The position numbers were made by a program, and so were the translations under genes. A stretch of DNA of 64,000 nt from Dipodascopsis uninucleata var. uninucleata (Eukaryota; Ascomycota; Lipomycetes; Lipomycetales; Lipomycetaceae), in NCBI GenBank assembly GCA_030568195.1, contig JAJLTO010000011.1:62001-126000 (forward strand), read 5' to 3'. The notes below the pieces were generated by a model. The model worked only from the letters and a program-made list of their open reading frames with translations. It searched no databases and had not been told where the DNA came from. Of this stretch, positions 884 through 42,275 are shown piece by piece (position 1 is the first letter of the stretch; every line of letters starts with the position of its first letter).

Positions 884-2044
884 ATGACTGTCGCACAAAA
901 GCCAAACGTCGGCGTCTTTACCAACCCTTCACATGATTTATATATTGCTTCTTGCAGTCCAGATTCTGCAGCTCTCGAACCTGCTCCTGGGGAGGTAATT
1001 GTACACGTCAAGGCGACTGGTATTTGCGGGTAAGTAAAAGCTGAAGAGGAGGTGCTTCGTAGACTTTTTTATAGAACAAAAGGACTTTCTGACACGGCTG
1101 ATAGGTCCGATATTCACTTCCAGAAGCATGGCCAGATCGGGCCTACTATGGTTGTTAGAGAAGAGCACATTCTCGGACACGAGAGTGCTGGTATTGTCAT
1201 CGCTGTCCATCCTACTGTTACTAGCCTAAAGGTGGGAGATAAGGTTGCCTTGGAGCCCGGTGTTCCATGCTACAAGTGCAAACAGTGTCTCTCTGGATAC
1301 TACAATGGCTGTCCTGATGTACAGTTCAAGAGTACACCGCCAGTTCCTGGATTCTTGAGAAGATATGTCAATCACCCTGCGGAGTGGTGCCACAAGATCG
1401 AGGGCCTCACTTACGAGGAGGGTGCTTTGCTCGAGCCATTGTCAGTTGTGTTATTTGGAATTGAGACCAGCGGTCTAAAGCTTGGCGATCCTCTGGTTAT
1501 TTGTGGAGCAGGACCAATTGGCATCATTGCTGCCCTTTCGGCTAATGCTGCTGGTGCTTCGCCCATTGTCATCACTGATGTTTCAGAGTCACGACTAGAC
1601 TATATCAAGAAGCTTGTCCCAAGGGTAAACACTGTTCTCGTTTCCCGAGGGCAGACTCCAGAGGATGTTGCGTCTGAGATTATCAAGGCTGCTGGCGGAA
1701 TCAAGCCACGCGTCTGTTTGGAATGCACCGGCGTTGAGTCATCTCTCGCCTCAGGTATTTACTCGCTTGAGTTCAGAGGAGTGTGTCACTGCATTGGTGT
1801 TGGTGCCACATTTCAGAATATTCCATTCATGCATTTATCTGTTAATGAAATCGAGGTTAAATTTCAGTATCGGTATGCTAACCAGTGGCCGAAGGCTATC
1901 CGAATTATGCGAGAAGGACTCGTCAACGGCATTCAAAACATTATCACTCACAAGTTTAAGTTGGAAGATGCGGTCAAGGCATTTTCGACTTCTGCAGATC
2001 CAAAGTCAGGGTCAGTAAAGGTTATGATTGTAGATGAGGAGTAG
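884..2044 (+). CDS. lad1: L-arabinitol 4-dehydrogenase (zinc MDR family), 2 exons
   Basis: The enzyme would oxidise L-arabinitol to L-xylulose with NAD+, the second step of the fungal L-arabinose pathway, in the cytosol. Exon 1 is 884-1029 and exon 2 is 1105-2044; the 75-nt intron has a GTAAGT donor and ATAG acceptor and splits a Gly codon in the motif GICGSDIHF. The product is 361 aa, slightly shorter than characterised LADs (about 375 aa). Visible features are the catalytic-zinc ligands Cys48 and His74/Glu75 (GHESAG), four structural-zinc cysteines (104, 107, 110, 118), the NAD-binding GAGPIGIIA near residue 179, and the LAD-like segments STPPVPGFLRRYVNHPAEW and QYRYANQWPKAIR. The last one favours LAD over xylitol or sorbitol dehydrogenase. 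Codons are C-ending biased in places, consistent with good expression. A xylitol or sorbitol dehydrogenase is the main alternative. Confidence 0.85.
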
Positions 2045-5000
2045 ATTAGTCGATATGACCAGTGTTAGATAAGGGTTTCAAATTTGCTAGATAGGCATGG
2101 CATCTGGTAGGCATTTAGTTTGTGACTTTGCTGGCTGAAGTTGTTATTTTAGCATTCATCTGTAGCTGAGTAGATACTTGTAATAATGTATTTGATAGAA
2201 CTATGAGCAGCACTCCATATTTTTTTCTTTTTTTTTGTTTACGGCTGAGATTGAGATCTTGTGTTCAAATCAATGTAATGCCATTCGATTGCTGCAGTTC
2301 CAGCTAAAGCGAGCGGGGTTGATAAGAATATTTTGGATTAAGCGTAGTCGTTGAGTGCTGGCTTCAGCTGGCCGCGATTTGCTTCACAACACCTAGACGC
2401 AGCAACTTCAAGCGGTCAGTAGAGCTATGAGCATTACAGCATTATAGCAGCATTCCATGATATTCTAGGACCTTCGAGAACGTTCGAGCGTACGCTAGCA
2501 AGCCGTGTTTATTCGTGCGACGTGCACTGCAGTTATTATTTTTATCGGCACTGCTGGGGAGGCATTCCTGTCAAGTCACGCGAACTGGATTCATGCTGAG
2601 TCACGGTGTAATGACAGTGCGCACACTATGATTCTTTCTCAGAACGTGATTACCTATTCAAAGGAAGTTAGGTCAGATTTTTTCAATCTAGTTCGTGCGT
2701 CGGTCTAGCGTTTACACAAATGCAACACGCGTCGTATGCCGGATATCTGTGGAAAAACAATCACGTGGTAAAAGGATGTCGACTGTATTTAGCGTGCGAC
2801 ATTCGTCGCGCATGGCTGGGTCAAATCTCTGTGGCTCTCTGCACGATAATCGAGCTCATATTCTCCGCTCACTTGCGCGGTGCATGTTTAGAGCGCTACA
2901 TACAGCATAGTGTGGCTAGTCACTTCTCCACAAAACCTTCCCAAAAAATAAATGAGTCCTGTTTCGCGGGGTGAAACTCTATCGATATTCAGACGATATT
3001 TTTGCCTAACATGGCGTTAGATTATAGAAAGTTTAAGCTGAATCTTCCTTAGTTTACTCGTTAGAGCTTTACTGAGCAGAAAAGCGACTCTGATGCACTC
3101 GGAAGACAGCACGCCATCACCAAATTCTACAGTCAGTAAACCCTACGCTATTAGATAATGGCAACTAGCATCTTAAAATACTACTTAAGGCTAGGATTGA
3201 TGGAAGGCACTACCCATGGAGGCTAGAGCTGTAATGCTTAACATCTCTTACAGCCCTTTTGGCGTCCAGCTAGACATACATTGGTCGCGTGTGCCCGCAC
3301 TGCTCGTACGTACTGAGCGTCGTACTACAGCGTCCCCGCAGTACATGTAGATTCATTCTATACGCAGCAAAGCTATTCTGACTGTGAGAAGCAACCTGTT
3401 CCTGCTAGGATATCATTCTGTTAGTCCACTGTAGAAGCTGCGTTTAAGCTCTTCTGTGAACCAACCTAGCTGGCTTGTCCCTAATAGCCCTCTAGTCTAC
3501 TGCCCCTCCCGTCGCCCCGCTGTTCCCCATACTAGAATATCGCAGTTACATAACCTCGATGGGGATTCTTACAAATTGCCCAGTCTTGCTTGATGCTTTT
3601 CGGAACGATTGATGGCCAGACGTGCGGATGAATGATCACATTGGGGTTAGCAGTGCATATAGATTGCTTACCTGGGATATAAGAGCAAAGCCCTAAGCTT
3701 CCCCACTGTCTGAACTCTATATCGTAGAAACTCTAATTTAGACCTGGGAACTCTTGTCGCTCTCCTTCGTCCCCCCGTAAGCTTCCCTACCGCATTGCTT
3801 TTCCGCTGTCCCCTCTTTGATATTATGTCGTACTACTCGTTGCTGTCTATTCATTGCACGCTTCTCTCTAGCAAGCTCAGTTAAAATGTGAATTAGGAAT
3901 GTAGAGATGTAGAAATAGATAGAAATAAAATAGAATAGCCCGCATCTCTCTTACATGTCCAGTGAAAACCCACACCAGAATCTCCGAGTTTGCTCCAGGG
4001 ACTGCTGCCTGCATCGTCGTCATTATAAAGCACTCTTCCGTGTCGCAGTGCTAAATGTACCTCGTGATGCTCGTCACCCTTTATTGTGGTTTGAAAGTTA
4101 GTAAATTCAAATTTAGTCATCGGATGCAAGCTGCTAAACTTTAACCTGCTTCCATTATATTGTGTCGTATGCAGAGATTTTCAGTTCGTCAATGTCTGCA
4201 GTACACCTACAATAGCTATATCGTTGACAAGTTGGGCTCTTTTTTGAAGTATATTCCGTTTCATATTCGTTTTTTCATCAATTTCATACCAAAGGAGCCT
4301 ATAGTACAAATATAGCTTTTTAGATCTTTGGCTTCTGCTCGATATCTGGACGATCCGACATCGCTGCAGTCAGTTTCCCCGCACAGATATCGCCCGGTCC
4401 GCGAACGTCCATTTCACTAGAACGCCCTGTTGGCCACTTTTTGTCTCATAGAACTTCAACAGGTCCGCAAACAATTCTCTACCAGATACTGTACCAAAAC
4501 AAGTACAGCATTTAAATAAGCCGTCATAAAGTGTCGCTACGTCTAGCAGAACATATCATACATTAATAAATTCGTCGCGGGTAAATACGGCGGAAAAAAA
4601 GAGCTTCCGTCTAGGCTTGAGCCAATTGATTTGCAAGGAGAGAGAGCAATCTGTCAAAGCAAGTGAAAGTACCATTAGAACAGCATTCGCTTCGGTGGAT
4701 CTACTGTTCTCTGGAGGTAGGCAGGATCCAGTCAGACATCGTTATCTGTCTTCAATTCATATATCTAGCAAACTGTCAAAGTTAGAGCTGTGCTAACAAG
4801 AGTCTTCGTGCTATCTTTGGGCACAGATTTGCATGTAATAGATCTCAACTAATATCTTCTTCTCCTCCATCAAATATCATGGAATTTTCACCCCGAAAGT
4901 CGTCTCTATTTCAATAGCACTTTATTTTATTAAGAAAAGTGAGTTTTCTATTTGCTCTACTCGCAGGCTTGTACAATCTGCATTTTCGCCACGCCTTCTC

Positions 5001-5142
5001 TCTATCTACTCAAAATTTTACTTCTGAGGTGCACAGCCAACTAAACGGACAAATTGCGCAGCATACTTAGTTACTGCATATCTTCAGTTTCGCAGTATCT
5101 CCTTGGTCTACAAGTGCTTGCTGCTCTATTTGCCTTGCGGGT
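2045..5142. other. 3.1-kb intergenic region upstream of the XlnR-like gene
   Basis: Only short, unconvincing ORFs (at most 84 aa) occur on either strand. No tRNA, repeat family or transposon was recognised by eye. The 3' end of the dehydrogenase lies at the left, followed by a T-rich tract near 2220-2240. The rest is probably regulatory DNA for the transcription factor at 5143; long upstream regions are common for such regulators. Confidence 0.5.
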
Positions 5143-7839
5143 ATGCCAACTGCGATAGAAAATCGCCAAATGTTTGCTGATGCCCCACAATCTCTCAATT
5201 CATCCTCTATATATTCGCTAAATCCAGATCATATCTCTCCGATGACGTCTACAGTACTTGGTATTGGCAACAATAATAGCATCAACGGTAGTGCAGTCGA
5301 TAGCAGAAGTACCAACATTAATAAGAGGATGCTTGATGATATGGACGCTACTACAGTTCATTCCTTGGATGATGTCAGTGATGGAACATATCAACACCTC
5401 CCCCAAGATCAGGCGCAATACAAGCAGCAGAAATCGAATACCATACAGTCTCAGAACCAACCTCCCGCACAAAGACGTCGTATATCCCGTGCCTGTGATC
5501 AGTGTAATCAATTTCGTACTCGCTGTGATGGAAAACTACCGTGTAAACGCTGTTCAGACCTGGTTCTCAATTGTGACTATGCTAGACAAATGAAAAAGAG
5601 GGGAAAAGGATCTAATCGATATGCCTCAAACACTGCTGCACGATCCGCTGCTGCTGCAGCTGCTGTGACTACCATTAGTGGCTCATCTGGAAATGCGCAT
5701 AGTGCAAGCCAATCGCCATCTAATGTTTCCCTTCGAGAAAGTCCCGCGGATAGCCATTTGAATGGTCTTGGTCCCTCTGTTAACACAGGGACCCTTTCGA
5801 ACACACATATAGCGCGTGCATCGCAGATTCAAAATGTAACAATGCCCAGTCAACGTTCTCCTATTTACTCAAACACAGCTCATCATGTATCACCTGGATC
5901 CTCAGTTGGTTCAGAGTCGTCTGGTATTAACACTTCTGCCGACGAATATCATGATATCAGTAAGTCTACATCAGCTACTGCAGTGTCACGCTCAGCATCA
6001 ATACCAAATGGGGAGTTGAGTGAGTTTCTTATGCGTCATATAAATAATGCAAAAGCCGAGTCTGCTGCTATCAACGGTGCTTATTTGGAGAGTTTGGAAG
6101 AAATAACACCGGAGATCGGCCAGATGTTTCAGAAAACCGCTGGTGCTGCTACAGCACAAGATCAAGGACCTACTGCTTCAATTTTTGTACAGACTCCTGG
6201 GACATCTACTCCTAGATGGTTCAATATTCGCTCACCTTTCCCTGCTTCGCTTTCTGCATTTTTCGCTTCTACGCCTGTTGCCGATCATACTAGTCCATCA
6301 GCAAGTGCAGACACTGTTCCAGGAGGTGGTCTTACATCTGGAGCTAATCATCTTCAGCACAATGCATATCCTGTTTTAGCGCCTATACTTCCTTATATTG
6401 ATTTCATATCACCTTCACTTGCTGCTGATCTGATGGCTGTTTACTATTCAAACACTATTTATGGTGTTGCACATTTTACTCGTAAATCGTCGGTACTTAC
6501 TACTTCAAGGGCACCACGAACCTGCTCTAAAGCCCTTCTCTTTTCGTTTATGTACATGGCGGCGCATGTGTCGGATCACCCAGATCTTACAGTCACGCCG
6601 ACCTCTCGAACTGATATTATATCCAAACTATATGATCTGACTATACAGCATCTCCAACCACTAATCTATTCCGATAGAGCTGGCACGCTGGATGACGTGA
6701 TGACATATATTCATTTAGGAATAATATCGTCAGCGTCTGAATTCAAAGGGGCATCACTGCGTTGGTGGCATGCTGCAGTTGGTCTAGCTCGAGTTTTGAA
6801 GCTGAATGTGGAAATGAAGTCAGGAACGATCTCAGAAGAAACTCGTGAAGAACGTCGAAGAGTATGGTGGTTATTGTTTCTTGTTGATCGTCACCTAGGT
6901 CTATGTTATAACAGGCCAATTAGTGTGTTAGAGCATGAAACGTACGGCCTGTATCAGCCTTGTCGAGATGATATTTGGTTTAAGGATGTTGACCTCGTGC
7001 CTGCTGAGTTAGATCCTTCACGAGCTCGAGGAATTCCTTACACAGCTTCCGGTCCCGATATCTGGGGATATTTTCTTCCGCTAATGGCTCTACTAGGTGG
7101 AGTTGTCGAACTACATATTCTTGAAATGAGTGAAATTATTGCAGTACCACAGGAAGCTCTGGAGATGATGCGAAATAATGTACGTGTTCGCCTTAATAAC
7201 TTTATCAAGTCTGTCGACGAGTATGAACAAGACAAGAGTCTATCTGGAGATGACAAATTTATTTCCATACAGAAATCATCCTGGAAAGAGTACTGTAGAT
7301 GTCTAATACACGTGATGCACATTATCGTATCTGGATATTGTGACCCTATTGACATCTTATCCTTACCACATTCCATGGTTCTTGATAGTGATTTTGTAAA
7401 TGTCATCCAACATGCTTTAGACTTCGCTAAGACTATAAAGCGAATTCTGGAGCTAGATCCTGATCTTCGTATGATTCCTTTCTTTTTTGGAATCCATATG
7501 CTTCAGGGAAGTTTCACTCTGTTATACGTTGTTGATGTCCTCGGAGACAGAGAAGTCAGAGCTGCATGCGAAACAATCGTTAGAGCGCATGAAGTTTGCA
7601 TTGTAACATTAAACACTGAATATCAGAGAAATTTCCGACAAATTATGCGAGGTGCTCTGCAGATGATAGATGTTTTGGCCGATCGAAGACGAAAGGTGCA
7701 TGTCCCTCATAACAATCTTTATGGTGGTTCACCTCCAGAAGAAATTGTCTTAAGTGAGATCGAGGATTCTAAGAGGAGACGCAGAAACCTATTAAGTCTG
7801 TATCGATGGTCTAGAGGAGGCAATGGTTTAGCCGTATAA
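5143..7839 (+). CDS. xlnR-like: XlnR/Xyr1-like Zn2Cys6 transcription factor
   Basis: This is a nuclear regulator of the XlnR/Xyr1/CLR-1 branch, which controls xylan, arabinan and pentose genes in filamentous fungi. The single exon encodes 898 aa, within the usual XlnR range (about 875-945). The zinc cluster is canonical: Cys118-x2-Cys121-x6-Cys128-x5-Cys134-x2-Cys137-x6-Cys144, preceded by RRRISRACDQCNQ and followed by KKRGKG, both XlnR hallmarks. The middle homology (Fungal_trans) region covers roughly residues 390-650 and includes RWWHAAVGLARVLKLN and EERRRVWWLLFLVDRHLGLC, very like XlnR. The N-terminal 110 residues and the segment 160-380 are Ser/Gln/Asn-rich and probably disordered, with an Ala run at about residues 168-175. 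The second half of the zinc loop (KLPCKRCSDLVLNCDY) differs from classical XlnR, so a sister regulator such as CLR-1 type is possible. A dehydrogenase of the same pathway lies 3.1 kb upstream. Confidence 0.82.
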   Translation: MPTAIENRQMFADAPQSLNSSSIYSLNPDHISPMTSTVLGIGNNNSINGSAVDSRSTNINKRMLDDMDATTVHSLDDVSDGTYQHLPQDQAQYKQQKSNTIQSQNQPPAQRRRISRACDQCNQFRTRCDGKLPCKRCSDLVLNCDYARQMKKRGKGSNRYASNTAARSAAAAAAVTTISGSSGNAHSASQSPSNVSLRESPADSHLNGLGPSVNTGTLSNTHIARASQIQNVTMPSQRSPIYSNTAHHVSPGSSVGSESSGINTSADEYHDISKSTSATAVSRSASIPNGELSEFLMRHINNAKAESAAINGAYLESLEEITPEIGQMFQKTAGAATAQDQGPTASIFVQTPGTSTPRWFNIRSPFPASLSAFFASTPVADHTSPSASADTVPGGGLTSGANHLQHNAYPVLAPILPYIDFISPSLAADLMAVYYSNTIYGVAHFTRKSSVLTTSRAPRTCSKALLFSFMYMAAHVSDHPDLTVTPTSRTDIISKLYDLTIQHLQPLIYSDRAGTLDDVMTYIHLGIISSASEFKGASLRWWHAAVGLARVLKLNVEMKSGTISEETREERRRVWWLLFLVDRHLGLCYNRPISVLEHETYGLYQPCRDDIWFKDVDLVPAELDPSRARGIPYTASGPDIWGYFLPLMALLGGVVELHILEMSEIIAVPQEALEMMRNNVRVRLNNFIKSVDEYEQDKSLSGDDKFISIQKSSWKEYCRCLIHVMHIIVSGYCDPIDILSLPHSMVLDSDFVNVIQHALDFAKTIKRILELDPDLRMIPFFFGIHMLQGSFTLLYVVDVLGDREVRAACETIVRAHEVCIVTLNTEYQRNFRQIMRGALQMIDVLADRRRKVHVPHNNLYGGSPPEEIVLSEIEDSKRRRRNLLSLYRWSRGGNGLAV

Positions 7840-8100
7840 GCAATCAAATACTAGATTATCACATTAGTTTTATAAGCCTTTTTGCCTTGATTGGATATAT
7901 GATGAGGAATTCCCCAACGGAGCCGATATCACGAAATGTTCTATTAAATTTTTTTGGCTGTTTATGAAAAATATTCTGTAGTAGGCGTAAAGTGGGTGTT
8001 TGTCACAGTTATTATACTATTTACTCGTTTAATGCTAATATTAATATTTGCTGCTGTTATTATATTCGTATTTTTATCGTTAGTACTATTATTACTACAA

Positions 8101-8148
8101 TTATACTATTATTATACTATTATTATACTATTATTATACTATTATTAA
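8101..8148. repeat. AT-rich minisatellite, 11-bp unit
   Basis: About four tandem copies of the unit TATTATTATAC are readable directly. The stretch lies in a wider AT-rich tract 260 bp downstream of the XlnR-like stop codon. Short ORFs over it are artefacts of the simple sequence. Confidence 0.85.
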
Positions 8149-8492
8149 ACTATATTGTCACCTGTAGTATTATTTCTATCATTTTCATTCTGTTATTATT
8201 CTTAGCAACAATGCTATTTCCGATAAATTTGTTTTTGCAATTTAGCATGTATGATAAAGCTACTGGTAATTCTTCGACATCATTTCGTGCAAAACTGATT
8301 TCATCGTAGTTCATGCAAACTTGACTATTTTGTCGAGCCTAATCCTATACGTCTTACTTGAATATCTATGCCACGAAGGACTTCCAACATGGAAAGGTTA
8401 TAGCGATTTAGCTGTCGTACAGACCGACTAAATTGTAGTGATCTGCCAAATATATTACGGATCCTTTGGATCTCAAGGTCAGGGGGAGAGGC

Positions 8493-8541
8493 ACGTGCTG
8501 AGCACGTCCCTTAAGCCAGCTGCCACCATTTGACTGGCAGC
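8493..8541. repeat. Two adjacent inverted repeats
   Basis: The first is ACGTGCT-G-AGCACGT (8493-8507), containing the E-box core CACGTG at its left edge. The second has arms GCTGCCA (8519-8525) and TGGCAGC (8535-8541) with a 9-nt loop. Both are exact. They could be binding sites for dimeric factors or RNA hairpins; I cannot tell which. Confidence 0.6.
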
Positions 8542-9436
8542 ACCTCCTAGCCATATGCCGGCTGTCAAGTTTCTTTATAACTGTAAACTCTTGTATTTAT
8601 ACATTACCATAATCTATTGTGGTTATTGCTTAGTCGAAACTGACCTAACAGGAAAGACGTTGGTATTAACGCTTTACCAATATTAATGCTCGCTTGACCA
8701 GAGAGCGGTAATTCCGATTCACAGACTGCGAAAGTTGTAGCTACTTATGAAGCCTTCGGCACAAGCTATTGCTGCTAACCGAAAACTTGATTTTGGGTAC
8801 TTTAGCGTTGCGTTGTCAATATGGATAGATGGGTAGTATAACATATTATCAGTCTCTGATTGCGACATTCTATAAATAAAACATAAATCAATAATCTTCA
8901 GTCCTTTGTTCAGTTCTACTTATCTGCGGTAAAAGAAATGAGGTAGAAATTAGTTTTAAAAGGACCAACCAAATATCGTCTTTTACAAACTCTGTTTCCT
9001 GATTGCTGCAAATTACCTCGAGTTTTCAAAATTCTTTGCATCGTTTTCCACAAAAGCGTATTAAATCAAAAGACATAACCTCCTTATCTCCAAGTACTAT
9101 TACGCTACAAATTTAATTCAGCAGCATACTAAAGAAAGCTATATATGCTGTTACAGAAGCATTTTCGGATATTTCATCGTTGCTCGAAACATATCCGTCT
9201 ACCGCTGCAATCTTTGTAATAATAACGCAACAATTGGCGCAGTATTCGCGTGCGGCTCGTAGTTGTGATCTTCAGTTCTCCGGCGCATATTGACTGATTG
9301 AGAATATTTTCCCGTCCAAACTATATTCGACTGCCAATTTACATTCGCAAGGGTCTTTTTTCAATTCTCGGCATTTACAAACTGGAAATAACCCAGCTCT
9401 GGCACTATTTCAGAAATTTACGGACAGTAAGGAACA

Positions 9437-12400
9437 ATGGCAACATGCTTTGATATAGAAGGATGGGGACCATTATCTCCAGTATACTACACCTTCACGC
9501 CGTGTTTCGTGGATATTTTTCTCCCTACTGTCATCGGTTCCGGTCTCATAGTTTTCGGATACCGAGAATTCAGACAGATATATCGTTATCCTAGATCGCT
9601 GCCTGTACAGGATTTCTGGTTTTTTAGTAAATTTGCGCTGATCATACTAATCATAATTCTTGATCTGCTCTATATAGGTAATTTGCCATCTTTAAATCCT
9701 TCTGTTGATCTTAGGGGTCTTGCGCACACTATAGATTTAGCGGCCTCGTCTTTCGCTGGATTTATACAGTATAATGAACTATATCGTGTTAAGATTCCAA
9801 GCAGCCCAGTTCTCTTGTACTGGGCATTCACAGCATTCACAAACTTTGTTCGCTTTGCTGGCATGATGCAGCGCCAGTTTGCCTCTCAGCAACTATCCAC
9901 GATTGCAGGCTTAAGTGTGATTGTGTCGTTGGCAGTTTTTATTGTTTCCGTCTCTGACAATTCAACTAGGTCTCAATATAGTGCTCTGGTTGATGAGGAT
10001 GAGTTGGCACCTGAAGCGACTGCGAATATATTTTCGAGATGGACTTTCTGGTATCACTCCAAGCTCATGGAATCTGGTTCACGAGACTTTTTGACGAATG
10101 ATGATCTTCCTAGCATTCCTCAGAACGCTAAGTCAGATATCGCAATTGATAAATTTGATTGTATCTGGCAAAAAGAAGCAGCGACTTCCAAGCCTTCAAT
10201 CACGAGAGCTTTAGTCGCTCGATATGCACCCATTTATATCTTTGCTATGTCTCTTCGTCTCATTGGGGACAGTCTCAAGTTTGTGTTACCAAGACTTTTG
10301 CAGCAGCTGATTCTCTTCGTGTATCGCTACCAGAGCGACAAGAGCGGAGAGAGTGCCAAATTGTCGCAAGGAGTAGCAATAGCGTTTGCAATGTTCTGCT
10401 GCTCATTTCTCCAGACCCTTTTCACGCAGCAGTATATGACGCAAATTTTCAGTAGCTCTATGAATTTGAAGACTACTCTCACTGCACAGATCTACCGGAA
10501 AGCGCTTAAACTTTCTAATCAAGGACGATCTAATAAGACGACGGGTGATATTGTTAATCTAATGACGGTTGATACTGCAAGGTTACAGCAAGTCTTGGAA
10601 TCTGGACAATCTCTTTGGTCATCACCGTTTAATATTGTTTTGTGTCTTTATAACCTCTACGCATTAGTCGGAAATTCTATGTGGGCAGGCGTATTTATGA
10701 CCTTGGCAACCATTGGAGTGAACACTTATATTTCATATCTTCAGCGGAAACTTCAAAAGATCCAGATGAAGGTCAAGGATGAGCGTACGCGACTTACTGG
10801 TGAGATTTTAGTATCTATAAAGTCAATCAAATTTTATGCCTGGGAAGAATCATTCTTACGAAGACTCCATGAAATACGTAACAATAAAGAATTAAAAAAT
10901 GTTCGAAAACGAGGTTATTATTCAGCCGTTACGAATTTTATTGGGTCTAGTCTCTCATTTTTAGTATCTTGCTCAACGTTTGCAATGTACGTGTTAACAA
11001 ATGATAAACCTTTAACCACTGATATCGTGTTTCCGGCAATGACTCTTTTTAATCTTCTCTCAACACCACTTCAGCAGCTGCCACAGGCAATAACCATGCT
11101 GGGTGAGGCAAGTGTATCAGCAGCTCGATTGACGAACTTCATGAATGCCCCTGAACTCCAACCAGATGCGGTGAAGCGTCTGGAAGCCGCTAAAACTCGC
11201 GATCAAGTTGCAGTATCCATCGAATCTGGAACGTTTAAGTGGGATGAGAATGAAGCCAATGGTCCTGCTTTGAAAGATATCAACTTAACAGTTAAAGCTA
11301 CTCAGTTGGCATGCATAGTTGGTAGGGTTGGTAACGGAAAGTCTGCTCTTTTACAGGCTATTCTTGGAGATATGCTGAAACTATCAGGCCGAGTAACTGT
11401 TCGTGGCCACGTAGCCTATTGCTCACAAGTTCCATGGATCGTCAATACGACTTTTAAAGATAATATTTTGTTCGGAAAACGATTCGATCAAGACTTCTAT
11501 GAGAGAACTATTCGCGCTTGTGCTTTGCTTGATGATATTGCTGTTCTCCCTGATGGTGACGATACTCTCGTTGGAGAGAAAGGTATCAGTTTATCTGGTG
11601 GTCAAAAGGCGAGATTAGCTCTTGCCAGAGCTGTATATGCTCGAGCAGATGTTTACTTGCTCGATGACCCCCTCAGTGCTGTAGACCAACACGTTGGCCA
11701 GCATTTAATTGATAATGTCTTCGGACCTCGTGGTATTCTTGCATCCAAAACAAAGATCATGGCCACTAATGCTATTACGGTACTCAACCAGGCAGACATT
11801 ATCTTGATGCTAAGAAAGGGAGAGGTAGTTGAAACTGGCTGTTATAATGATGTAGTGCGTAAGAAAAACAGCGAGCTCTACAATTTGATATCAGAATTTG
11901 GACACGAACGAAATTTGGTACAAGATGAAGAAACATCAGTGAAAGACGGTAACGATACAGATATAACAGTAATTCCACCCGCTTCTGATGATTCTATTGC
12001 AGAAATCACGTCTAAAATAGACATAAACGATCCCTTGCAACGGGACGACTCCGATACAGATGATGCAACGGCATACGAAAGTGACTCTCAGCTTGTGACG
12101 GACATGAGATTTTACGACCACACTTTACGCAGAGCAAGCACCGCGAGCTTCAAGAAGCCTAGCCTGTTTGACGACGTTCCGAATAGAAGGTCCGCTCAAT
12201 CAAGAGAACATGTAGAACAGGGAAATGTCAAATTGTCGGTCTATGAGCAGTACCTCAAAGCGGGAGGTATGAAGATGTTCGCCTTTTATTTCTTGCTGAT
12301 CTTCACTGCAAATTCATTGAATGTTGGGGGAAACCTATGGCTAAAAAAATGGAGTGAGACCAATACTGAATATGGTGGTAATCCTGACAAGGAAAAGTTC

Positions 12401-15890: not shown

Positions 15891-15920
15891 ATGGCGCGCC
15901 ATTGCGCGCCATTGCGCACC
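15891..15920. repeat. Three tandem 10-bp units
   Basis: Units read ATGGCGCGCC, ATTGCGCGCC and ATTGCGCACC in direct succession inside the GC-rich part of the desert. The array is short and has no obvious function. Confidence 0.7.
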
Positions 15921-23060: not shown

Positions 23061-23126
23061 GTGAGATATTCGACATCTGCTTCATGTAAGTTGCATTAGC
23101 GTATCTAGTGGCTCCTTTTTTTAACA

Positions 23127-31315: not shown

Positions 31316-34300
31316 ATGGCCTCCAGTACCAGTAATGTCTATGCCCGTCGTGCTGCTTTACATCTAGATGGCTCGAGTGAAGCCGGTCAACCATCTTTTG
31401 AGTCCTTACAGCAGCTTCTTTCCTTCTCACATGAGCGCTATTCTCAGTATCCTCAGTCCACGTCGCGTGAGGATCTTTGGAGGCTCTTGGCAAGTCTCGA
31501 CTCCTACACTCGTGTATTAATTGATGCTACAGGTTCTTTTACCCAGGGTCGCCTGCGTTCTGGCTACAGTAGTGCAATTTTGGAGTCCTGGCTGCTTGGA
31601 GGTTGCATGGCTTACGTATGTTTACATCTTTCTTTATATTCAGTCGCTTCCTTATAGATTCTTCTTTTTTTAATTTGTTCTCTTGCCCAGCTGCTTCTCT
31701 GGAATGTTACTAATTATGATATCTTTGCTCTATTTTTCTAGACTCTCGGCGACATGGCTCGAGCAATTGAATGGAATTACAGAATATTAAGTGTTGATCC
31801 AAAGTAAGTATTTATGCCTTATATCCTTACAGGTATTTCTACGAGAGAAAATATATTGTCACGTTCGAGTTCTAACTGGCTAGTTATGTCGAGGCTATGT
31901 CGAATCTAGCTGCTGCGTTACGCGCTTTGAAGCGTAATGGAGATGCTGAGTCTTGGTGGTCTCGTGCAGTTAATTTGCGTCCCACGTACTGGGATGCCGC
32001 AGACCACTTGTTTTCTCTCTTGTGCTCTCAGCACCGGTATGCTGACGCTGCGAATGTGTTAAGTTTCGTTGAGCGCTGTGCTGCTCCCGCTGCCACAATT
32101 TCGATCTCCTCGATACAACTTAGCACTACCCCTGTCACAAATGCTGCCAGTAGCAGAGGAGCTGACTTTTCGCGATACATTGCCATTGTACATGCTAAAG
32201 GAATGCTTCTTTATTCCATGCACGACCATGTTTCTGCAGCCGAGTCTTTTGGTCGAGTTTTATCTCTTGCAATTGGTGGATCTCTTGGTACTATTTCGCA
32301 GTTAATTCATCTTGCCCGATCTGCTTTGGAGAAAAAGCGACACAACACGCTACTTTTAACTCCAGCAGAGGCATCTACTAGCCTTCAAGATGTATTTCCT
32401 ACCGGCCTTCCTGCCCTCCAGTATGTCACAAATTCGCATCATCGCCAGTCAATTAGCCATACAGTAGCTAATGCACTTCTCACTTTGGCAAAAATTCTTC
32501 AGGACGGCATGGCGTCAGGTGCGACTAAAACCGCTGAATCACCTAAAATAGTTACTGTTGACACAATTCTTCGTATCGTTGATACTATGCCATCTCCTCT
32601 GGATATCCTGCCGTTATATTATATTTCTTTTTCGTTACATCCAAGTCCTTCAACGGCCAACAATATTGGTATCTTACTTGCCTCTATTTGCTCTGCTGCT
32701 ACCTCGCATCCAGTTGAGCAAGATCTTGCCATGCAATACTACAAATTTGGTCTGGAACTGGATCCTAGTCATCCTCATCTTTATACAAACCTCGGTTCCT
32801 TGTTGAAAGAACAGGGTAGATTGTCCGAGTCTATTGAGATGTATGAGCGTGCCGTATCTTGTGACCCTTCCTTTGATATTGCATTAGCAAACTTGGCGAA
32901 TGCTGTCAAGGACCAGGGTAGAGTAGCCGCAGCAATTCAATATCATAAGCGAGCTGTAGCTGTCAATCCCAATTTTGATGAAGCAGTTTGTGGTCTTGCA
33001 AATTCTCTCACCTCTGTTTGCGACTGGAGTGGCCGTGGGTTTGTCTCCTCAGAATCGTGCGGAGTTAATGATAATGGCGATATAACAATGACACCGACTG
33101 CTGGATGGGCTAATCGTGTAGTTGAAATCGTTAATTCGCAACTATCACTTGCTCGCGCATGGGGAGCCGGAGTGGTTTCGCAGCATCGTTCGAGTATTTT
33201 GTCTGATATTGCGACTGCATGTGGCTATTCGTCAGTAGATTCTACGGAAATGAAAATCTGGAATGATGAACTTAATCATATCTCTGGAAAGGATGATGAA
33301 GGCTCAAAGTTGGTTGAATTATTAGATAGGGCCGCTTGTAGAGCTAGATGGCGATGGTTTCATGATCTATACATCAATCAAAGATTTGATGAAAATAAGA
33401 CTGTCGATCCAAATAGCTACTGCTGGCCAATTCTACCGTCCGGTCTTGCACTTCCAGCAGCGCCAACTGTGTTACCGTTTCATACGTTCATGTTTCCGTT
33501 TTCACCGTCACAAATCAGGGAAATATGTCGTCGTACTGCTTTGAGAGTATCGGCTACAGTTTTCAAGTATCCTTGGTTGCCAAAACATGTATATCCTCCT
33601 CCCCCACCTCCAAGTCCTGCTCTCAAAGTGGGTTACGTCTCTTCAGATTTCAACAACCACCCGTTGTCACATCTTATGCAAAGTGTATTTGGCTTCCATA
33701 AATTCAGTAACTCGACTGAAAGACCAGTTCATGCTATATGCTATGCAACGACAGCATCAGATGGATCTAGTTATCGACTGAAAACGGAGGCAGAAGCACA
33801 TAAATTTGTTGATGTTTCATCTTGGTCTGTTCAACAGATTGTCGATCGTATAGTAGCTGACGGTATCCATGTGATAGTCAATTTGAATGGATTTACGCGA
33901 GGTGCTCGTAATGAGATATTTGCCTGTCGACCTGCTCCAATCTCAATTGCATTCATGGGATTCGCAGGATCGATGGGTGCGGAATGGTCAGACTACATCT
34001 TAGGTGATGAAATCACGATACCGAAAGAGACCACACGAAAATTTTCACCCGATGCAAGCTCCAGAATTCTACGTCATAGTGAAGATGTATGTAGTAATAA
34101 TGATGAGTGGGTATATTATGAAGATGTTGTATACTGCCGACATTCTTTCTTCTGTTGTGATCATCGGCAAAGTGCTCCTGACTCAAAGGAGCTGGATCCA
34201 TCTTCGCCATCTGTAAACAGAAACGAATTGTGGTTAACTGAGATTGAGCGCCGAAAGCATCTGCGCAAGTCGATCTTTCCGGATCTTGCTGAAAACGCAA

Positions 34301-34953
34301 TAATTCTTGCTAATTTCAATCAATTGTATAAGATTGATCCTTCCACCTTCGTATTATGGTTACGAATTTTGATGCGGGCGCCTAATGCCGTTCTCTGGTT
34401 GCTTAAATTTCCTGATCTTGGAGCAAATAATTTACGAATATTTGCTGAGCGATGGGCTGGAAAATCTGTTGCGGATAGGATAATATTCACGAACGTTGCA
34501 GACAAAGAAACGCATTTGCTTCGTACTAGAGTTGCCGATCTTGTATTGGATACACCAGAATGTAATGCTCACACTACGGCAACAGACGTGGTTTGGACAG
34601 GTACACCTGTTTTAACATGGCCAAAGTATCAACACAAGATGTGCAGTCGAATAGCTTCTTCGATAATGACGTCAGCTTTCCCAGATCCCAGAGAAATAGG
34701 CAAGTCGCGTCTTATCATTTCTAATGAATATGAGTATGAGGAAAGAGCAGTAGAGCTTTGCGAAAGAGCTGGCAGTGAACTTTTGCAAATACGCAAGAAG
34801 CTTTATCTTAACCGCCTTAATAGCCCAGTATTCGATACGTCTCGCTGGACCAGAGACATTGAGAATGTGTACTGGAAACTCTGGGATCGCTGGGTTGAGA
34901 AAGGTGGAAGCGTTACAATTAATGATGATCGTGATCGTAACATCTATATTTGA
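31316..34953 (+). CDS. OGT: UDP-GlcNAc:protein O-GlcNAc transferase (GT41), 3 exons
   Basis: The enzyme transfers GlcNAc (or, as in SPINDLY, a related sugar) to Ser/Thr of nuclear and cytosolic proteins. Exons are 31316-31615, 31742-31803 and 31884-34953; donors are GTATGT and GTAAGT, acceptors CTAG, and the joined frame reads DPNYVEAMSNLAAALRALK, a typical TPR. The product is 1143 aa. TPR units fill the N-terminal half, clearest at about residues 400-500 (HPHLYTNLGSLLKEQGRL and following repeats). The GT41 domain covers about residues 700-1130: KVGYVSSDFNNHPLSHLMQS with His717 matching human OGT His498, GARNEIFACRPAPI, FNQLYKIDPST with Lys937 matching human Lys842, and CNAHTTATDVVWTGTPV. UDP-binding and catalytic residues are therefore retained. 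Compared with the human enzyme it has extra sequence between TPRs and catalytic domain and inside that domain (about residues 850-910). OGT is absent from budding and fission yeasts but present in other fungi. Confidence 0.93.
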
Positions 34954-35748
34954 GAGATGTTGTATACGCCTAATTTTACCTTAATATTATGGATCGTGGC
35001 GCATATTTGTGATATATAATTTTTATGGAATACCTCGGGGATTTGAGTTATTGCTTTTTTATTCTTTATATTTATACTTCTATTTGGTCCATTCTTTATT
35101 CAGATGGCTGGGACAACTACCAAACCATCTTCACTTCGATGTATTGTAACTAAAAGTGCCATTGATCGTCTGTTGTTCCTGTATGTTATTTTGAATGGAG
35201 GATGCAGCGATGGCGTTCTTCTATCATTTTCATTCTGTTTTATAGTGTTTGAGCACTTAATTTCTGTGATTTATGTGATTTAACCGTTATGTGAGGGTTA
35301 TGAGTTAAAATGTGTCGATGTGCAATAATATTATGCCATGCGTATCGCTTGTATAAAGTGACTTATCGCGCATGTGTAGGTTAATTTTTTTCTTTGATCT
35401 GGTATCTAAGAATATGCATATATTCTTAATGGGTAAATAAAGTATTAAATGTATGGGTCTATGACGATTTATAGTGTGGGAAACTATCGGGTCTGAATTT
35501 CGAATAAAAACGCTATATATAAATAACATAAACTTGTAGGCGTTGGCGATTGCCAGTTTAAATGCAAGTAAGCATAATGAGGTAGATGAGAATACTATCA
35601 ATTTCGGCTTCTAGAACATATCACATCTATAATAGAAAAAATGCTGCGGTGAAAATGATGACATGGAGCGACTATTCCTGGACAATGTCACGAGCATAAT
35701 TAAAAAAGTTCGAATAATTTATATCATATATCTGTGATCACAAAGTAG
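34954..35748. other. Convergent 3' intergenic region
   Basis: AT-rich 0.8 kb between the 3' ends of the OGT gene (+) and the gene at 35749-37353 (-). It contains T-rich tracts after the OGT stop and presumably both polyadenylation regions. No gene is supported. Confidence 0.6.
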
Positions 35749-37353
35749 TTAGTAATTTGGGTCAATTGTCATCGGTGAGGACCAACTTACCGTCCAGTCG
35801 AAAACTGAAACTGGGTGTCCAACAAGCGATGGCGACAGCCAGGATTTCTCAACCCAGTTTTCTGGATATCTTGCGTTTTTCGTACTCTTGAACATTTTGC
35901 GTAGTTCCGTAAACTTCCTTATGTCGATACTTATAAACGATGAATCATAAGATACAACAGTTCGTACCATGGTATTCTCAGAGCCGCTGGATTGCATAGG
36001 TGATGATTCTAAAATATATCTTTTAGAACCTATAACAAATCCAACAGTTACAGGAGCAATAATCTCTACATCAATCGTATACTCAATACCAAGAGGAGGA
36101 TCCTCGCCAAATGGATCCTCTATGGTTAACAGAGGAAGCATAGTAATGTTGGAACAGAACCCAAGACTGTAAGAAAATGGGAGGTCTGGTGCAAATTGTA
36201 GTTGTTTTCGACCATGTCGAATCTGGTCCAGGCTTCTTGAAGAATATCCAATTCTTGTGTGGACGTCGATAATTCTAACGGTTGTTCGAGGATCCTCTAA
36301 TGCCCAATCGAGATATATATTCCCATGGTTGCTGGCAGCAGAGCCGACCGATTCACTCTCTGCTAGTAATTGAGACTCTGCTTTGTCCATAGCATTGACT
36401 AGACCTGGATGGCAGAGGTCTCTCCAGTCTCCTGATTCATTCGAGGCCCTATTGTTGTGAGCCTCTATAACTTTATGCATGAACTCTCGAGCAGAGAGAG
36501 CTGCACCCCGAAGAAACTCATAGCCAAAGTATTCCCTAACGCGTTCGGCCTGTTCTGTCACTTCTTTAGCCTTTTCCATAGCATCACGAATAGCATTCAT
36601 TAGCTTTTCTACTTCAGGACTCTTGCTCTCTCTGTTTCTGTCAAAATTGAGCTGTTCAGAAAATATCTCGAGTCTGTTTACTGCTGGGGGCAGGACTTTC
36701 TCGCTTCCATTGGGATCCGCATGTGCAATATCTTTCCCGGTAATAACAGAAAATATAATTTCATTCTTTCCCCGTGACAGCTTGTTCGCATACTCCACGG
36801 GTATGAATTTGGTCGACATAGCCATCAGAGCTCGCGATCTAAGGTAGTTGTACCGGCGGTTCTGCAGAAAATCGCTTAAGAAGGACCAAAATGAAAATCC
36901 TTTCGATGCCTCAAGTATTTCATACTTCGCAATACCCAGTCCCTTTGGATTGGCAACTATGAGATGAGGAGTTCGGTCACTAGGCTTGGCCCATGGCGTT
37001 AGACCAGCTAACAGTTTCGTGGTTAGCAAGAGGGTGGCCGCTAAGATCAACGATCAACTCGAGTATTTCACGGGATACTTACGCAGAACTGACAGCGGCT
37101 TCGGCATCCTGTTAATAAATTCCTCAATCTTTAGGCGCTCGGTTGAATTCACGTCGGTGGCCTGTCGTGCGCCGTCGCCTCGCTGCTCAGACGCCTTGTG
37201 GTCAATGATGTCATTTTCGTCATCAAGTTTGTTTGAGAGCCGGCCGGAAGAACTAATCTCGCGCACACAGAGCGGCGGTCCAATAGGAATCTCCGAGCGT
37301 AGGACCCTGCATGATCGAATAGCTGTTGATTGTCGTGAGAGTCTAGGGGACAT
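35749..37353 (-). CDS. Unrecognised protein, probably mitochondrial membrane protein, 2 exons
   Basis: I do not recognise the family. Exon 1 is 37353-37083 and exon 2 is 37040-35749, joined over a 42-nt intron (GTAAGT donor, CTTAG acceptor); the product is 520 aa. The N-terminus MSPRLSRQSTAIRSCRVLR is basic, Ser/Arg-rich and free of acidic residues, as in mitochondrial presequences. Right after the splice lies one hydrophobic segment (TLLLTTKLLAGL), possibly a membrane anchor. A central stretch (about residues 210-270) is charged and helical, suggesting a coiled coil, and the C-terminal 200 residues look like a folded beta-rich domain. This layout resembles single-pass inner-membrane proteins with a soluble domain. 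The intron is the shortest in the window, but it keeps a strong frame and is needed to link presequence and body. Confidence 0.65.
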
Positions 37354-38900
37354 TGCTGCAGGAGAAGCCTAATTCATACGCTCGTCAGAAGACACGTAAA
37401 TATTGCAGGCGTCATGCCATTTTTGTTCTCTACTGAAGCATGATATCATGTCCGGGTAAGTCTCGTTCTGAACGAGCGTAGTGTTTTGCTCTGGAACTGT
37501 TGTCACGGGCAGCAGTGTAGAGTCCCACGCAGCCCAGGAGCTAGAAGAACCACTGCCACTAGTGGATCTGTCTTCATATATGGTACAGTTCTGTGATATT
37601 ACTTGCACTGCAGACAGAAGCGCGCTACTGCTTGATATTCCAGTGGCTATTTAAGATGTTCTTTGGGGGCCCTCTCGCGCACTGCATCAGGCCTGTCAGC
37701 CGCAGTACAAATGCGTGACATAAGCGCACGACATGAGCGGTATTTTTGGATTAGAAAGGTGTTTGCATGTTAATATGATCTCGAGGCAGCATATGCCGGA
37801 TATTTCCTACGCTTGAGTAAGTTGTTAGTAAGCGCATAATCATTGTGAGGCGACATCGATGGTCTTGTTAGAGCCAATGGATTTTCCATTAGGGCTTTGC
37901 GGCACCATGACTTCCGCCGGATTTTTGGCCCGGTTTTCCGACTAATTTCCACTAGCCTACAGATATTTCCACGCGTACACGGACGACCCTTAGATGCAAC
38001 AACTGGGGTCCCTCCAGCTATGTCGAGGGACAGTACTAGGTTGTCTGTGGTTGCTCCCTAATTCCTAACCACTACGCAGTGCTCTCGGCGTCTCTTATTC
38101 TTTTGGTGCCCACGATACTGCGAGTACTGGCCGATTACTGCTGAGAGAACATAGAGGTACCGGAGAAACCCCAATTTCTGACCCGACTGGTACCTGACTC
38201 GTAGCCGAAGCATTTTACTGCACCGCGCGTGGAAGCTAACAATATAACCACAGCATACTTTCACTAAGGTTCAACCCTATGTACCTATCCGAACTTTAAA
38301 CTCTATTGTGTCGCTTCTCCGCACTTGTCTACTGCCATTCTCAAAGGGAACTCACTGAGGACTCTCTACATTGATTTCCCCTTCGGACATCTATTTTGCC
38401 GAAATAGACCAGAAATCTACATTCACACAGTAAAGCATTCAGCGTCTAATAAAACTACCTAGCGCAGCAACCAAGAGCTGGCAGTACGGAAATCAGTGCG
38501 CGTCACAAAAACCTAGATTTGCGTGCCACATCCTTTGGTGTGAAGGCTAAATGGCGAACCGAATACACTGACGTATCGATCGTGTCGTGATCCTTCCGCG
38601 TGCAAGAGCTATGTATTGCCTAAATATCGTAAGCTAGACGCGCTGAAATGCCCTTCTTGCTGCCTATCCGACAGATTTCATGTAAAGGGCTACGGTGGCT
38701 TTCCACTGCCTTAACATAGCGCTCTTCAATGAGATTTTTATCTCACCGCTGGCACAGTCATATTTAAAAGTATTTTCCAGAAATCTCTCAGATCCACAAC
38801 TTAAAAAGGCCAATCGATTCCGAAATTCGAGTGAGTCGTCCATACAGTCTCCACAGCTTTGTCAAAGCTCACATCAAGCACAATATAGCTAAAGATCATT
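37354..38900. other. Divergent promoter region between the mitochondrial-type gene and GH51
   Basis: This 1.5 kb separates two divergent start codons (37353, minus; 38901, plus). A 79-codon minus-strand ORF at 37369-37608 ends 15 bp before the minus-strand gene; it is Ser-rich and could at most be an upstream ORF. GGCTAA-type motifs occur at 38545-38551 (GGCTAAA) and 37952-37957 (CTAGCC, i.e. GGCTAG on the minus strand). No other gene is supported. Confidence 0.55.
38545..38551 (+). promoter_or_regulatory. GGCTAAA motif, candidate XlnR/Xyr1 site upstream of GH51
   Basis: The exact classical XlnR heptamer lies 350 bp before the arabinofuranosidase start. The link to the XlnR-like gene at 5143 is inference; the motif also occurs by chance elsewhere in the window. 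Confidence 0.35.
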
Positions 38901-40427
38901 ATGGAGTCAGCACAAACATACAACGTTACCGAGAACACGAAGGCAGTCGTGAAGATCGATCCAGACCGTGTGCTCGCCGACATCGACGACAAGGTCTACT
39001 CTGGGTTCCTAGAGCACATGGGCCGCTGTATCTACGGCGGTATCATCGACTATGACTGTCAGGTCAAGGGCCTCACCAACGAAAAGGGCTTTCGTCTGGA
39101 TGTCGCTGATGCGCTGAAAGAATTGAACATGCCAGTCGTGCGCTATCCGGGCGGAAACTTTGTTTCCTCCTACCACTGGTTGGATGCTGTTGGCCCAAAG
39201 AGCGAGCGGCCAAAGCGACCAGAGCTTGCTTGGCTCGGCGAGGAATCAAATCAGTTTGGCACTGACGAATTTATGGAGTGGTGTGAGTTCATGGGTTGTG
39301 AGCCTTATCTGTGTCTGAATATGGGAACCGGTACACTGGACGAAGCACTTGCATGGGTAGAGTACTGCAACTCTGACAAGAACACATATTACGCAAATCT
39401 GCGTCGTAAAAATGGACACGATAAGCCTTATGGTGTGAAATACTGGAGTTTAGGAAATGAGGTCTGGGGTCCATGGCAGGTTGGACAGATGACTGCTGAG
39501 GACTATGGAAAAAAAGCATTCCAGTGGGCCAAGGCACTTAAGCTCCTTGATCCAAATATTAAGCTCGTGGGCTGTGGAAGCATGGGACTTACAAACTGGG
39601 ATTACGACGTTACCCAAGCTCTTGTGTCAAAAATTGATCTTTACTCAATTCACATGTATACTTCTCATTCAGATTTTTATAAGAACGTTACCGGACCAGC
39701 AGCCGCTGAACGAGCTATTCAGATCACCGCAAAGCTCATTGATCTGGCTAGGATCACCACGAATGCTTACGACTCAGACGTCAAAGTCTGTTTTGACGAG
39801 TGGAATGTATGGGACCCAGTTAGAGCTGATGGCCAGTATGGAGCAGAAGAAAAATATACCTTATCCGACGCTTTGGCGGTTGCTTCTTGGTGCAATGTCT
39901 TTATCCGTCAAGCACGTCACGTCGGAATGGCTAATATTGCACAGTGTGTTAATGTAATTGCACCGATTATGACAACTAAGGATGGCATGTTTTTGCAGAC
40001 TATTTATCATACATTCGTGTTGTTTTGCAAGTATATGCGTGGCAAATCTCTGGGACTTCATGTAGGAGCTCCTCTGTATTCTGGAGAGACAGGCTGTTCT
40101 TCCTTTGATTTAAGTTGGATCAAGTCAATTGAACCTTCAGTTTCTTTGCTGGATGTGTCTGCCTCCATTAAAGATGATATTATCTCTATTGCTGCAGTCA
40201 ACCGAAGTTTAACTGACGACATCACTGTTAACTTTGCGTTGGAAGGTACATTTGCCGAGAAGATTACAGTCTTTACTGTCTATCATGACGATATCAATGC
40301 TACTAATACTATTGATCAGCCAGATGTTGTCACTGTTTCAGAGTCATCTGTATCTTCAAAATCTCTTTCTGCTTTCACTGTTAAGAAGCACAGCTTTGCA
40401 ATGCTGAGAGTGCCACTTGCCAATTAG
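38901..40427 (+). CDS. abf: Intracellular alpha-L-arabinofuranosidase, GH51
   Basis: This retaining glycosidase would release L-arabinose from short arabinosides. The single exon encodes 508 aa, the size of bacterial-type intracellular GH51 enzymes rather than the secreted fungal ones (over 600 aa). There is no signal peptide; the N-terminus MESAQTYNVTENTKAVVKID is hydrophilic. Visible motifs are GFLEHMGRCIYGGI, RYPGGNFVSSYHW, the acid/base Glu187 in WSLGNEVWGPW and the nucleophile Glu300 in CFDEWNVW. The fold expected is a (beta/alpha)8 barrel followed by a C-terminal beta domain (about residue 390 on). Codons in the first third are strongly C/G-ending and become more A/T-ending downstream. 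An MFS sugar transporter gene lies head-to-head at its 3' end 240 bp away, suggesting uptake of arabino-oligosaccharides followed by cytosolic cleavage. Transfer from bacteria is possible but untested. Confidence 0.92.
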   Translation: MESAQTYNVTENTKAVVKIDPDRVLADIDDKVYSGFLEHMGRCIYGGIIDYDCQVKGLTNEKGFRLDVADALKELNMPVVRYPGGNFVSSYHWLDAVGPKSERPKRPELAWLGEESNQFGTDEFMEWCEFMGCEPYLCLNMGTGTLDEALAWVEYCNSDKNTYYANLRRKNGHDKPYGVKYWSLGNEVWGPWQVGQMTAEDYGKKAFQWAKALKLLDPNIKLVGCGSMGLTNWDYDVTQALVSKIDLYSIHMYTSHSDFYKNVTGPAAAERAIQITAKLIDLARITTNAYDSDVKVCFDEWNVWDPVRADGQYGAEEKYTLSDALAVASWCNVFIRQARHVGMANIAQCVNVIAPIMTTKDGMFLQTIYHTFVLFCKYMRGKSLGLHVGAPLYSGETGCSSFDLSWIKSIEPSVSLLDVSASIKDDIISIAAVNRSLTDDITVNFALEGTFAEKITVFTVYHDDINATNTIDQPDVVTVSESSVSSKSLSAFTVKKHSFAMLRVPLAN

Positions 40428-40668
40428 AATAGTAATGACTTTGAGATATTTCCCTTTTTAATTTATGTTTCCTTGTACTACTTTAAACGATTTTAGATTC
40501 AATATCTAGTGGTATTAATAAATTTACGAATGCACTACCATTTTCAAATATACTCTGCATTAAATATGTCACGCTTTCTTAATTTCAATAAATTCCGTAC
40601 AACAGAAAGGTCAGAAACAATCGGTTTACAGGAATTAAATATAAGTAAATATTATCTGAACGACTCGC

Positions 40669-42275
40669 TTATTTTTCATTTTCAATGTGTAATGGTTCAG
40701 AGACGTCCTTCTCCATTTTTGCGTGCCTCACTTCCTCTTCAAGCTCAAGAAGATAATCTTTCTGCTTCATTCCAGGAATAAACCAAGGAGCATTCTCGAA
40801 AAGATTATTCATCGATTCCAATGGAACCTCCTTAGTCTCTGGTAGGAATGCCCAGAAAAATAAGGCATTTGTAAAGTTACAGATAATGAAGAGAAAGTAG
40901 TATTTATAGCCAACGCTCTTCATAGCTTTATCAGTTACCTGTCCAATCATGGTATTGAAAGCAAAGCATGTCATAGTAGAAATTGCGACACCCCATGATC
41001 TCGTCGCAGTGTTAAAAACTTCTGCCGGAATAATCCACGATAGTGGCCCACAGAATGCCGAGAAAGAAAAGTTATAGATCCAGGTAGACGCAATGAAACC
41101 TACTTGCGCACCACGTGGATTATTTGGTCGAGAAGGAGGATACACAGCAAGCAAAATACAGGCAGCAATAAATGTTGCGCAATTTCCGAGGTTTGCCCAA
41201 ATAAGTGGCCATCTTCTACCAGTGAGATCAATGACTAAAATGCAGATTGCTTGACCAATAAGTGCTATGATTGAGTTGATTGCTTGGAATAGAAGCGTCC
41301 TACCGGTGCTCAGTCCAATCTGAGCGAAAATAGTAGTTGAATAGTATTGGATAGCAGAGACTCCTGTCATCTGTATGCTGGCCTGAATTGCGACGGATAG
41401 AAACAATCTTCTAAAGTTTGAGCGAACGGTGAATAACTCGCGCCAGGATGCGCGATTCTCGCGCTCTTCCACAATAGAAGCTTGAATGGTCTCAAATTCA
41501 ACACGAACAAGAGCATCGTCCAAATCACCACCGGCATATAGCTTAGCTAAAGTAACAAGCCCTTGCTCGCCTTTATCAGTTTCAATTAGCCATCGAGGTG
41601 ACTCCGGAAACATAAAGATCAAAGACCCGAGGATAGCAGCAGGAACAATCTGGATACCAAGAGGTATACGCCATTGACGATTGTTTGAGAATCCCAGATA
41701 GCAGCCATATCCAATCCAACTGGCGCAGAGTGCGCCAATTCCCAGAAAGAATTGTTGAAGGGCAGTTACTCTTCCTCTGATGGAGGGATGAGAAAGTTCG
41801 GCTTGATACAACGGAATAATCATAGTCAGATTTCCGACACCCATGCCACCAATAAACCTTCCAGCAAAGAGATAACTGATATTCTGTGCTCCGCATTGTA
41901 AGCTTGAACCAAATATAAAGACAATTGTAGCGGCCATAATTGTGCCACGACGACCAAGCTTATCTGACAAGAAACCGGCAACGAAGGCACCGGCGAAGGC
42001 ACCTGCAGTAAACAATGATACTACTAGACCTGTCTGATCAGAATTTGGATTATTAAAGTAACTTATGAAGCTTTCTGAAGCAATTACTTGCGCAATGATA
42101 CCCTTTAGTAAGTTAGTCGAGTTGAGAAATCGCCAATTACACGGCCATCCTACATTATTCTCACCTACGATTGAACCAAGTCAATACATACCAAATCATA
42201 GCCATAAGTAAACGATCCTACAGAAGCAAAGCAGCATACCAGGAACTGGTACACCTTGGGAGTAAATAAGGTCAT
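40669..42275 (-). CDS. MFS sugar transporter, 2 exons
   Basis: This plasma-membrane sugar porter has 12 predicted helices. Exon 1 is 42275-42192 and exon 2 is 42102-40669; the 89-nt intron has a GTATGT donor, CTAAC branch site and CTAAAG acceptor. Joining restores FASVGSFTYGYDLGIIAQVI, a family signature, and gives 505 aa. The start MTLFTPKVYQF is the usual one for this family and a stop follows upstream in frame. Further motifs are LSDKLGRR between helices 2 and 3, PESPRWLIE before the central loop, and PETKEVPLE after helix 12; the tail NAPWFIPGMKQKDYL is typical of a fungal hexose/pentose porter clade. Substrate cannot be read from sequence. The convergent GH51 gene and a GGCTAA motif 80 bp upstream suggest arabinose or an arabinoside, which is inference. 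Confidence 0.88.

Follow-up and report, generated by a model that had tools for sequence, protein, structure and literature searches.

A possible subtelomeric sugar-use region with two separate small gene units in Dipodascopsis uninucleata

The window analysed here is a stretch of 64,000 nucleotides (C11:62001-126000) from the Dipodascopsis uninucleata genome, which comprises 16.2 Mb in 25 contigs. It may be part of a subtelomeric sugar-use region with two separate small units, one consisting of a short-chain dehydrogenase (SDR), an L-arabinitol 4-dehydrogenase (LAD) and a regulator, and the other of a GH51 alpha-L-arabinofuranosidase and a sugar porter. We give this reading, made from sequence comparisons, an even chance. 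A first-pass annotation had placed LAD, regulator, GH51 and porter in one loose module of 42 kb. All four genes lie where it had put them, and each was confirmed by domain and/or PDB matches. The single module itself was rejected, since the chance of finding GH51 and LAD this close together is not small near contig ends and since unrelated families intervene. The two halves of this module are joined only by their common region, about 60-105 kb from the telomere. The features concerned are the following (positions without a contig name are those of the window).

C11:60136-61003, minus strand, outside the window: SDR, 257 aa, two exons, candidate L-xylulose reductase
C11:61004-62883, no strand: divergent upstream region of SDR and LAD, 1.88 kb, of which 1..883 falls in the window
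884..2044, plus strand: LAD, L-arabinitol 4-dehydrogenase by family, exons 884-1029 and 1105-2044, ATG at 884, 361 aa
5143..7839, plus strand: Zn2Cys6 regulator of the XlnR family, 898 aa, with Zn_clus and Fungal_trans domains
38901..40427, plus strand: GH51 alpha-L-arabinofuranosidase by family, 508 aa, GGCTAAA at -356
40669..42275, minus strand: MFS sugar porter, 505 aa, one intron (two exons), Sugar_tr E 5.6e-93, GGCTAA at -83
C3:48573-51110: better candidate for the XlnR orthologue, on the basis of a zinc-cluster comparison

The first unit, of 10 kb, would be made up of the divergent SDR/LAD pair and the XlnR-family regulator downstream of LAD. To judge from its family, LAD would convert L-arabinitol into L-xylulose, the SDR would probably convert L-xylulose into xylitol, and the regulator probably activates both genes. 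In the second unit, the porter would import arabinosides and a presumably cytosolic GH51 enzyme would cleave them. It could be imagined that both units share a control by the XlnR family through GGCTAA-type sites. Even so, their common location would be due to the accumulation of sugar genes in subtelomeres and not to a module that evolved as one. Provided that the SDR-LAD-regulator unit exists, it represents a compact fungal arabinose gene set with its own regulator, which would be useful for pentose-using yeasts, and it offers a test of the repeated evolution of arabinose control from XlnR.

The dehydrogenase pair and the adjoining regulator

LAD matches the zinc MDR domains ADH_N and ADH_zinc_N. 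When its second exon (312 aa) is used as query, the top PDB match is the L-arabinitol 4-dehydrogenase 3m6i (403.6 bits), which we take to originate from N. crassa, as compared to 247.5 bits for sorbitol dehydrogenase and 181.6 bits for the xylitol dehydrogenase 7y9p. The genome contains 14 LAD matches, the gene itself included, and the runner-up, on C21, is 49% identical. For this LAD-like gene, the only paralogue that was compared with solved structures, the L-arabinitol enzyme and sorbitol dehydrogenase score 287.2 and 237.8 bits, a margin of 49 bits vs 156 bits for the window gene. By family, the latter is assigned as an L-arabinitol 4-dehydrogenase, and it is presumably active on L-arabinitol.

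The SDR gene is hidden beyond the window edge, and its start and that of LAD are divergent and 1.88 kb apart. Among the 60 of 626 PDB matches listed, the best are carbonyl reductase (270.5 bits) and mannitol dehydrogenase (198.7 bits). At a threshold of 1e-5, the genome contains 28 matches to the SDR (a count in which the gene itself and some split ones are included), the nearest of which, on C5, is 56% identical. Because L-xylulose reductases of fungi also belong to the SDRs, this gene is a candidate for the next pathway step, and it probably reduces L-xylulose to xylitol; this role is made less sure by the closeness of carbonyl and mannitol reductases and by the C5 paralogue. The same resemblance to carbonyl and mannitol reductases, together with the fact that polyol dehydrogenases of fungi are broad, would also suit an SDR-LAD pair devoted to another polyol, such as sorbitol, galactitol or D-arabinitol, with a regulator responsive to that polyol. 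However, LAD is far closer to the solved L-arabinitol enzyme than to sorbitol dehydrogenase, and we hold this alternative to be distinctly improbable.

Returning to an arabinitol-directed unit, LAD and the regulator are separated by a gap of 3.1 kb, with a single frame of 100 codons inside (2672-2974). According to the ORF lists, which could miss small spliced genes, the SDR, LAD and regulator genes adjoin one another on a stretch of 10 kb. The Fungal_trans family, to which the regulator belongs, has 72 matches in the genome, and these, along with the spliced genes, mark the genome as fungal, probably that of a yeast-like ascomycete. Out of fifteen stretches that match the window regulator, strong matches are confined to the gene itself, a C3 gene (in two pieces) and a C1 gene, the rest being much weaker. 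The first-pass label "XlnR/Xyr1-like" is appropriate at the level of the family, but as a statement of orthology it is weakened, since the C3 gene fits XlnR better. Over the zinc-cluster stretch of A. niger XlnR, for which the reference letters were assumed, 44 of 55 residues are identical in the C3 gene and 33 of 55 in the window gene. The zinc cluster is split by an intron in the C3 gene and unsplit in the window regulator, and the two share 45% identity over an alignment of 498 columns. The window regulator is probably a paralogue of XlnR, and C3:48573-51110 appears to be the likelier orthologue. Some 2 kb away from the third XlnR-family gene, C1:1658667-1660073, there is a match to the aldo-keto reductases (C1:1662131).

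In Aspergillus, pentose genes are controlled by the pair XlnR and AraR, to which the window regulator, as a Zn2Cys6 paralogue of the XlnR family, can be likened. The accessible parts of the relevant papers (PMC5468973, PMC6486530, PMC12538316) list ladA and lxrA in an A. niger regulon table and, unlike what is found in the window, do not mention a linkage of araR and ladA. AraR arose from XlnR by duplication and is reported only in Trichocomaceae, and the M. oryzae regulator ARA1 is without significant similarity to AraR, as stated in the available text of PMC5468973. Furthermore, L-arabitol is named as the inducer of A. niger AraR in the available portion of PMC12538316, and diagnostic residues for AraR and XlnR are given in that of PMC6486530. 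Since AraR, too, arose by duplication of XlnR, and since its inducer is the substrate of LAD, the boldest reading of this locus is that of a separate XlnR duplicate next to LAD. The window regulator would then be an arabinose-type XlnR duplicate that arose outside Aspergillus and its relatives, and with the adjoining LAD and L-xylulose reductase it would make up an arabinitol unit of three genes that is self-contained. As a whole, this appears rather unlikely to us.

The GH51 and porter pair

The GH51 protein matches Alpha-L-AF_C (E 1.9e-39) and PDB entry 8i0a (447 bits), and with 425.8 it does not reach the 625 required by the NCBIfam equivalog ArfA. Its translation contains GNE and DEWN, motifs that presumably have a role in GH51 enzymes. 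Its N-terminus, inspected by eye, displays no signal peptide. The porter passes TIGR00879 with 280.4 bits against a cut-off of 237.8. The two genes are convergent neighbours, as already noticed in the first pass, with 241 bp between them (245 bp by match coordinates). A recent bacterial origin of the GH51 gene was considered and rejected on the basis of sequence identity, which gives no sign of such a transfer, the top identity in the best segment being 43% among the best 80 of 345 confirmed prokaryote relatives.

Two GH51 matches exist in the genome. The second, C17:233384-234913, is 75.6% identical to the window gene and is also accompanied by a porter, at a distance of 2.1 kb. As this porter is just 33% identical to the window porter, a duplication of the pair as a block was rejected. 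Close to contig ends, the chance that a random gene has a porter nearby is 0.0048 within 245 bp and 0.039 within 2.1 kb; the C17 case carries less weight because C17 is rich in porters. The stretch C17:225273-250050 holds, besides the second GH51 gene, two full porters, pieces of further ones, a gene for a GH78 rhamnosidase and a GH13 frame that a single in-frame TGA interrupts.

HGT1 of Saccharomycopsis fibuligera is presumably a sugar transporter. Like the window pair, a signal-less GH51 of this species (ABF51, 517 aa) and HGT1 share one subtelomeric cluster, composed of SAP6, ABF51, HGT1, RTA1 and YRF1-2; in contrast to the window, no LAD, SDR or XlnR-type gene is named for this cluster in the accessible part of the source (PMC9705838). 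The GH51-porter pairing, as far as gene families and positions go, looks functional, but it is already known from Saccharomycopsis, and the present case extends that pattern.

A similar logic has been described for Trichomonascus vanleenenianus. When this species is grown on xylan, a cytosolic GH51_1, an aldose reductase, LAD, LXR and transporters are up, and it has been proposed that substituted oligosaccharides are taken up and then cleaved in the cytosol (available part of PMC13130702). The combination of GH51, LAD and transporter in the window matches this response. The route that the first pass had envisaged, with uptake of arabinosides, cytosolic cleavage and catabolism through arabinitol, would be of the same kind and retains its plausibility, although as a mechanism it is, to the extent that this partial source goes, already published for T. 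vanleenenianus. Unlike the situation in the window, a linkage of LAD, LXR and regulator is not mentioned in the accessible text of that report, and a secreted GH51_2 is present there as well. Among the titles and abstract openings of the open-licence literature matches listed, there is no report of linked LAD, LXR and XlnR-type genes, and the SDR-LAD-regulator arrangement may be new.

Location, linkage and chance

Telomere-like repeats with the ten-base unit TGTAACCCTA run at the left end of C11, which places LAD about 63 kb from the telomere. The unit is found at the start of C11, the start of C18 and the end of C21. In a sample of 20 contig ends, two carry the repeat, in addition to the C11 start, so that not every contig end is a telomere. 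The literature matches listed for this unit include no yeast-telomere paper. Sugar porters are strongly concentrated towards contig ends: of 60 loci, 42 are no more than 100 kb away from an end, where 26.8% would be expected (p 4e-12), and with a limit of 50 kb the count is 25, against an expectation of 14%. The 60 loci result from the merging of 69 matched pieces, some with internal stops.

The genes between the two halves of the rejected module include those of an ABC transporter, a Myb protein and a GT41 protein, besides one ORF with no Pfam match, in agreement with the first-pass remark that the halves are parted by unrelated genes. The GT41 gene, at 31897-34953, encodes a TPR protein with a domain of the O-GlcNAc transferase type (PF13844, E 4e-104).

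For an estimate of chance, gene positions were randomised either genome-wide or only within 100 kb of contig ends, a restriction that matters because of the crowding of porters there. All values were obtained post hoc, for a pathway that had been chosen once the genes had been seen. The chance that LAD has one of the three XlnR-family genes at a distance of up to 3.1 kb is 0.0017 genome-wide and 0.0072 near contig ends; that for one of five SDRs (the SDR beside the window and its four nearest relatives) within 1.9 kb is 0.0018 and 0.0064, that for any of the 28 SDR matches within the same distance 0.0096 and 0.036, and that for a GH51 gene within 36.9 kb 0.0091 and 0.033. The linkage of LAD to its two neighbours is probably beyond chance, and the proximity of GH51 to LAD is so weakly.

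A subtelomere with dense sugar and transport genes might also have brought members of one pathway together by mere coincidence, with no functional linkage. The enrichment of porters near contig ends would favour this, as would the near-end values for GH51 and for any SDR match, the choice of the pathway after the genes had been seen, the occurrence of xylose-reductase-like (XR-like) matches and of the best FGGY-kinase match on other contigs, and a motif enrichment that is non-significant with uncorrected starts (see below). Coincidence accounts less well, however, for an SDR and an XlnR-family gene as two independent neighbours of LAD, each with a low chance even near contig ends, or for the presence of a porter near both GH51 genes, the more so as ABF51 and HGT1 share one cluster in S. 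fibuligera (accessible part of PMC9705838). On the whole, we consider coincidence a possible but doubtful explanation.

GGCTAA-type sites and the remaining pathway genes

The XlnR site is GGCTAAA (PMC9703631), and a CGGNTAAW site, with CGGDTAAW as the form preferred by AraR, is given in the available part of PMC6486530. Two GGCTAAA sites lie in the divergent region between SDR and LAD; one of them, at -307 from LAD, has the sequence CGGCTAAA. GGCTAA is present within 400 bp upstream of 10 out of 57 ORF-based starts, among them those of both GH51 genes and of a GH43 gene, and corrected starts add LAD (-307) and the window porter (-83) as carriers. Within the same 400 bp, none occurs at the SDR, at the regulator or at the porters C17:225273 and C17:229959 near the second GH51 gene. 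For seven pentose genes, which were picked after inspection, the count is 5/7 vs 7/50 for other starts (Fisher p 0.003, with the LAD and porter starts corrected and the 50 controls uncorrected); it becomes 3/7 vs 7/50 when these corrections are left out, with p about 0.09 by hand. Because significance depends on the two start corrections, the motif lends weak support. CGGDTAAW was found nowhere upstream of SDR/LAD, the window GH51 or the window porter; the gap between LAD and regulator has one copy, and the upstream region of the C17 GH51 gene has two. These data, weak as they are, do not favour an AraR-like control of LAD.

The GH43 gene just mentioned, C11:20294-21346, is the sole GH43 match in the genome. 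It resembles xylosidase and xylosidase/arabinofuranosidase enzymes (436 bits to 5glk), and GGCTAA occurs twice in the 400 bp upstream of it. It could mark the start (C11:20294) of a single, wide arabinose module that is held together by selection, covers about 84 kb and ends with GH51 and porter after taking in SDR, LAD and regulator. With just one GH43 and two GH51 matches genome-wide, it is suggestive that the GH43 and one GH51 gene fall within the first 105 kb of C11, and that GGCTAA is found upstream of GH43, LAD, GH51 and porter alike. Nevertheless, OPT, GH2, GH76 and multicopper oxidase genes lie between GH43 and SDR, the ABC, Myb and GT41 families intervene further on, the spacing is not tight, and the other GH51 and an XR-like gene are situated elsewhere. 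We regard a module of this size as very improbable.

At C21:77417-82355, a porter, an XR-like gene and the second LAD-like gene are found within 5 kb, and this trio makes a more compact cluster for pentoses or polyols that rivals the one on C11. As the XR-like gene adjoins the LAD-like gene there, the main flux does not necessarily pass through the window LAD. Another XR-like gene is located on C1 and the top FGGY-kinase match on C15, so that the pathway is spread over several contigs. The top-scoring Aldo_ket_red match, on C14, was set aside, as by eye it did not resemble a xylose reductase. Finally, C11:156248-165998 contains long frames, NRPS-like by eye, that are broken by in-frame TAA and TAG stops.
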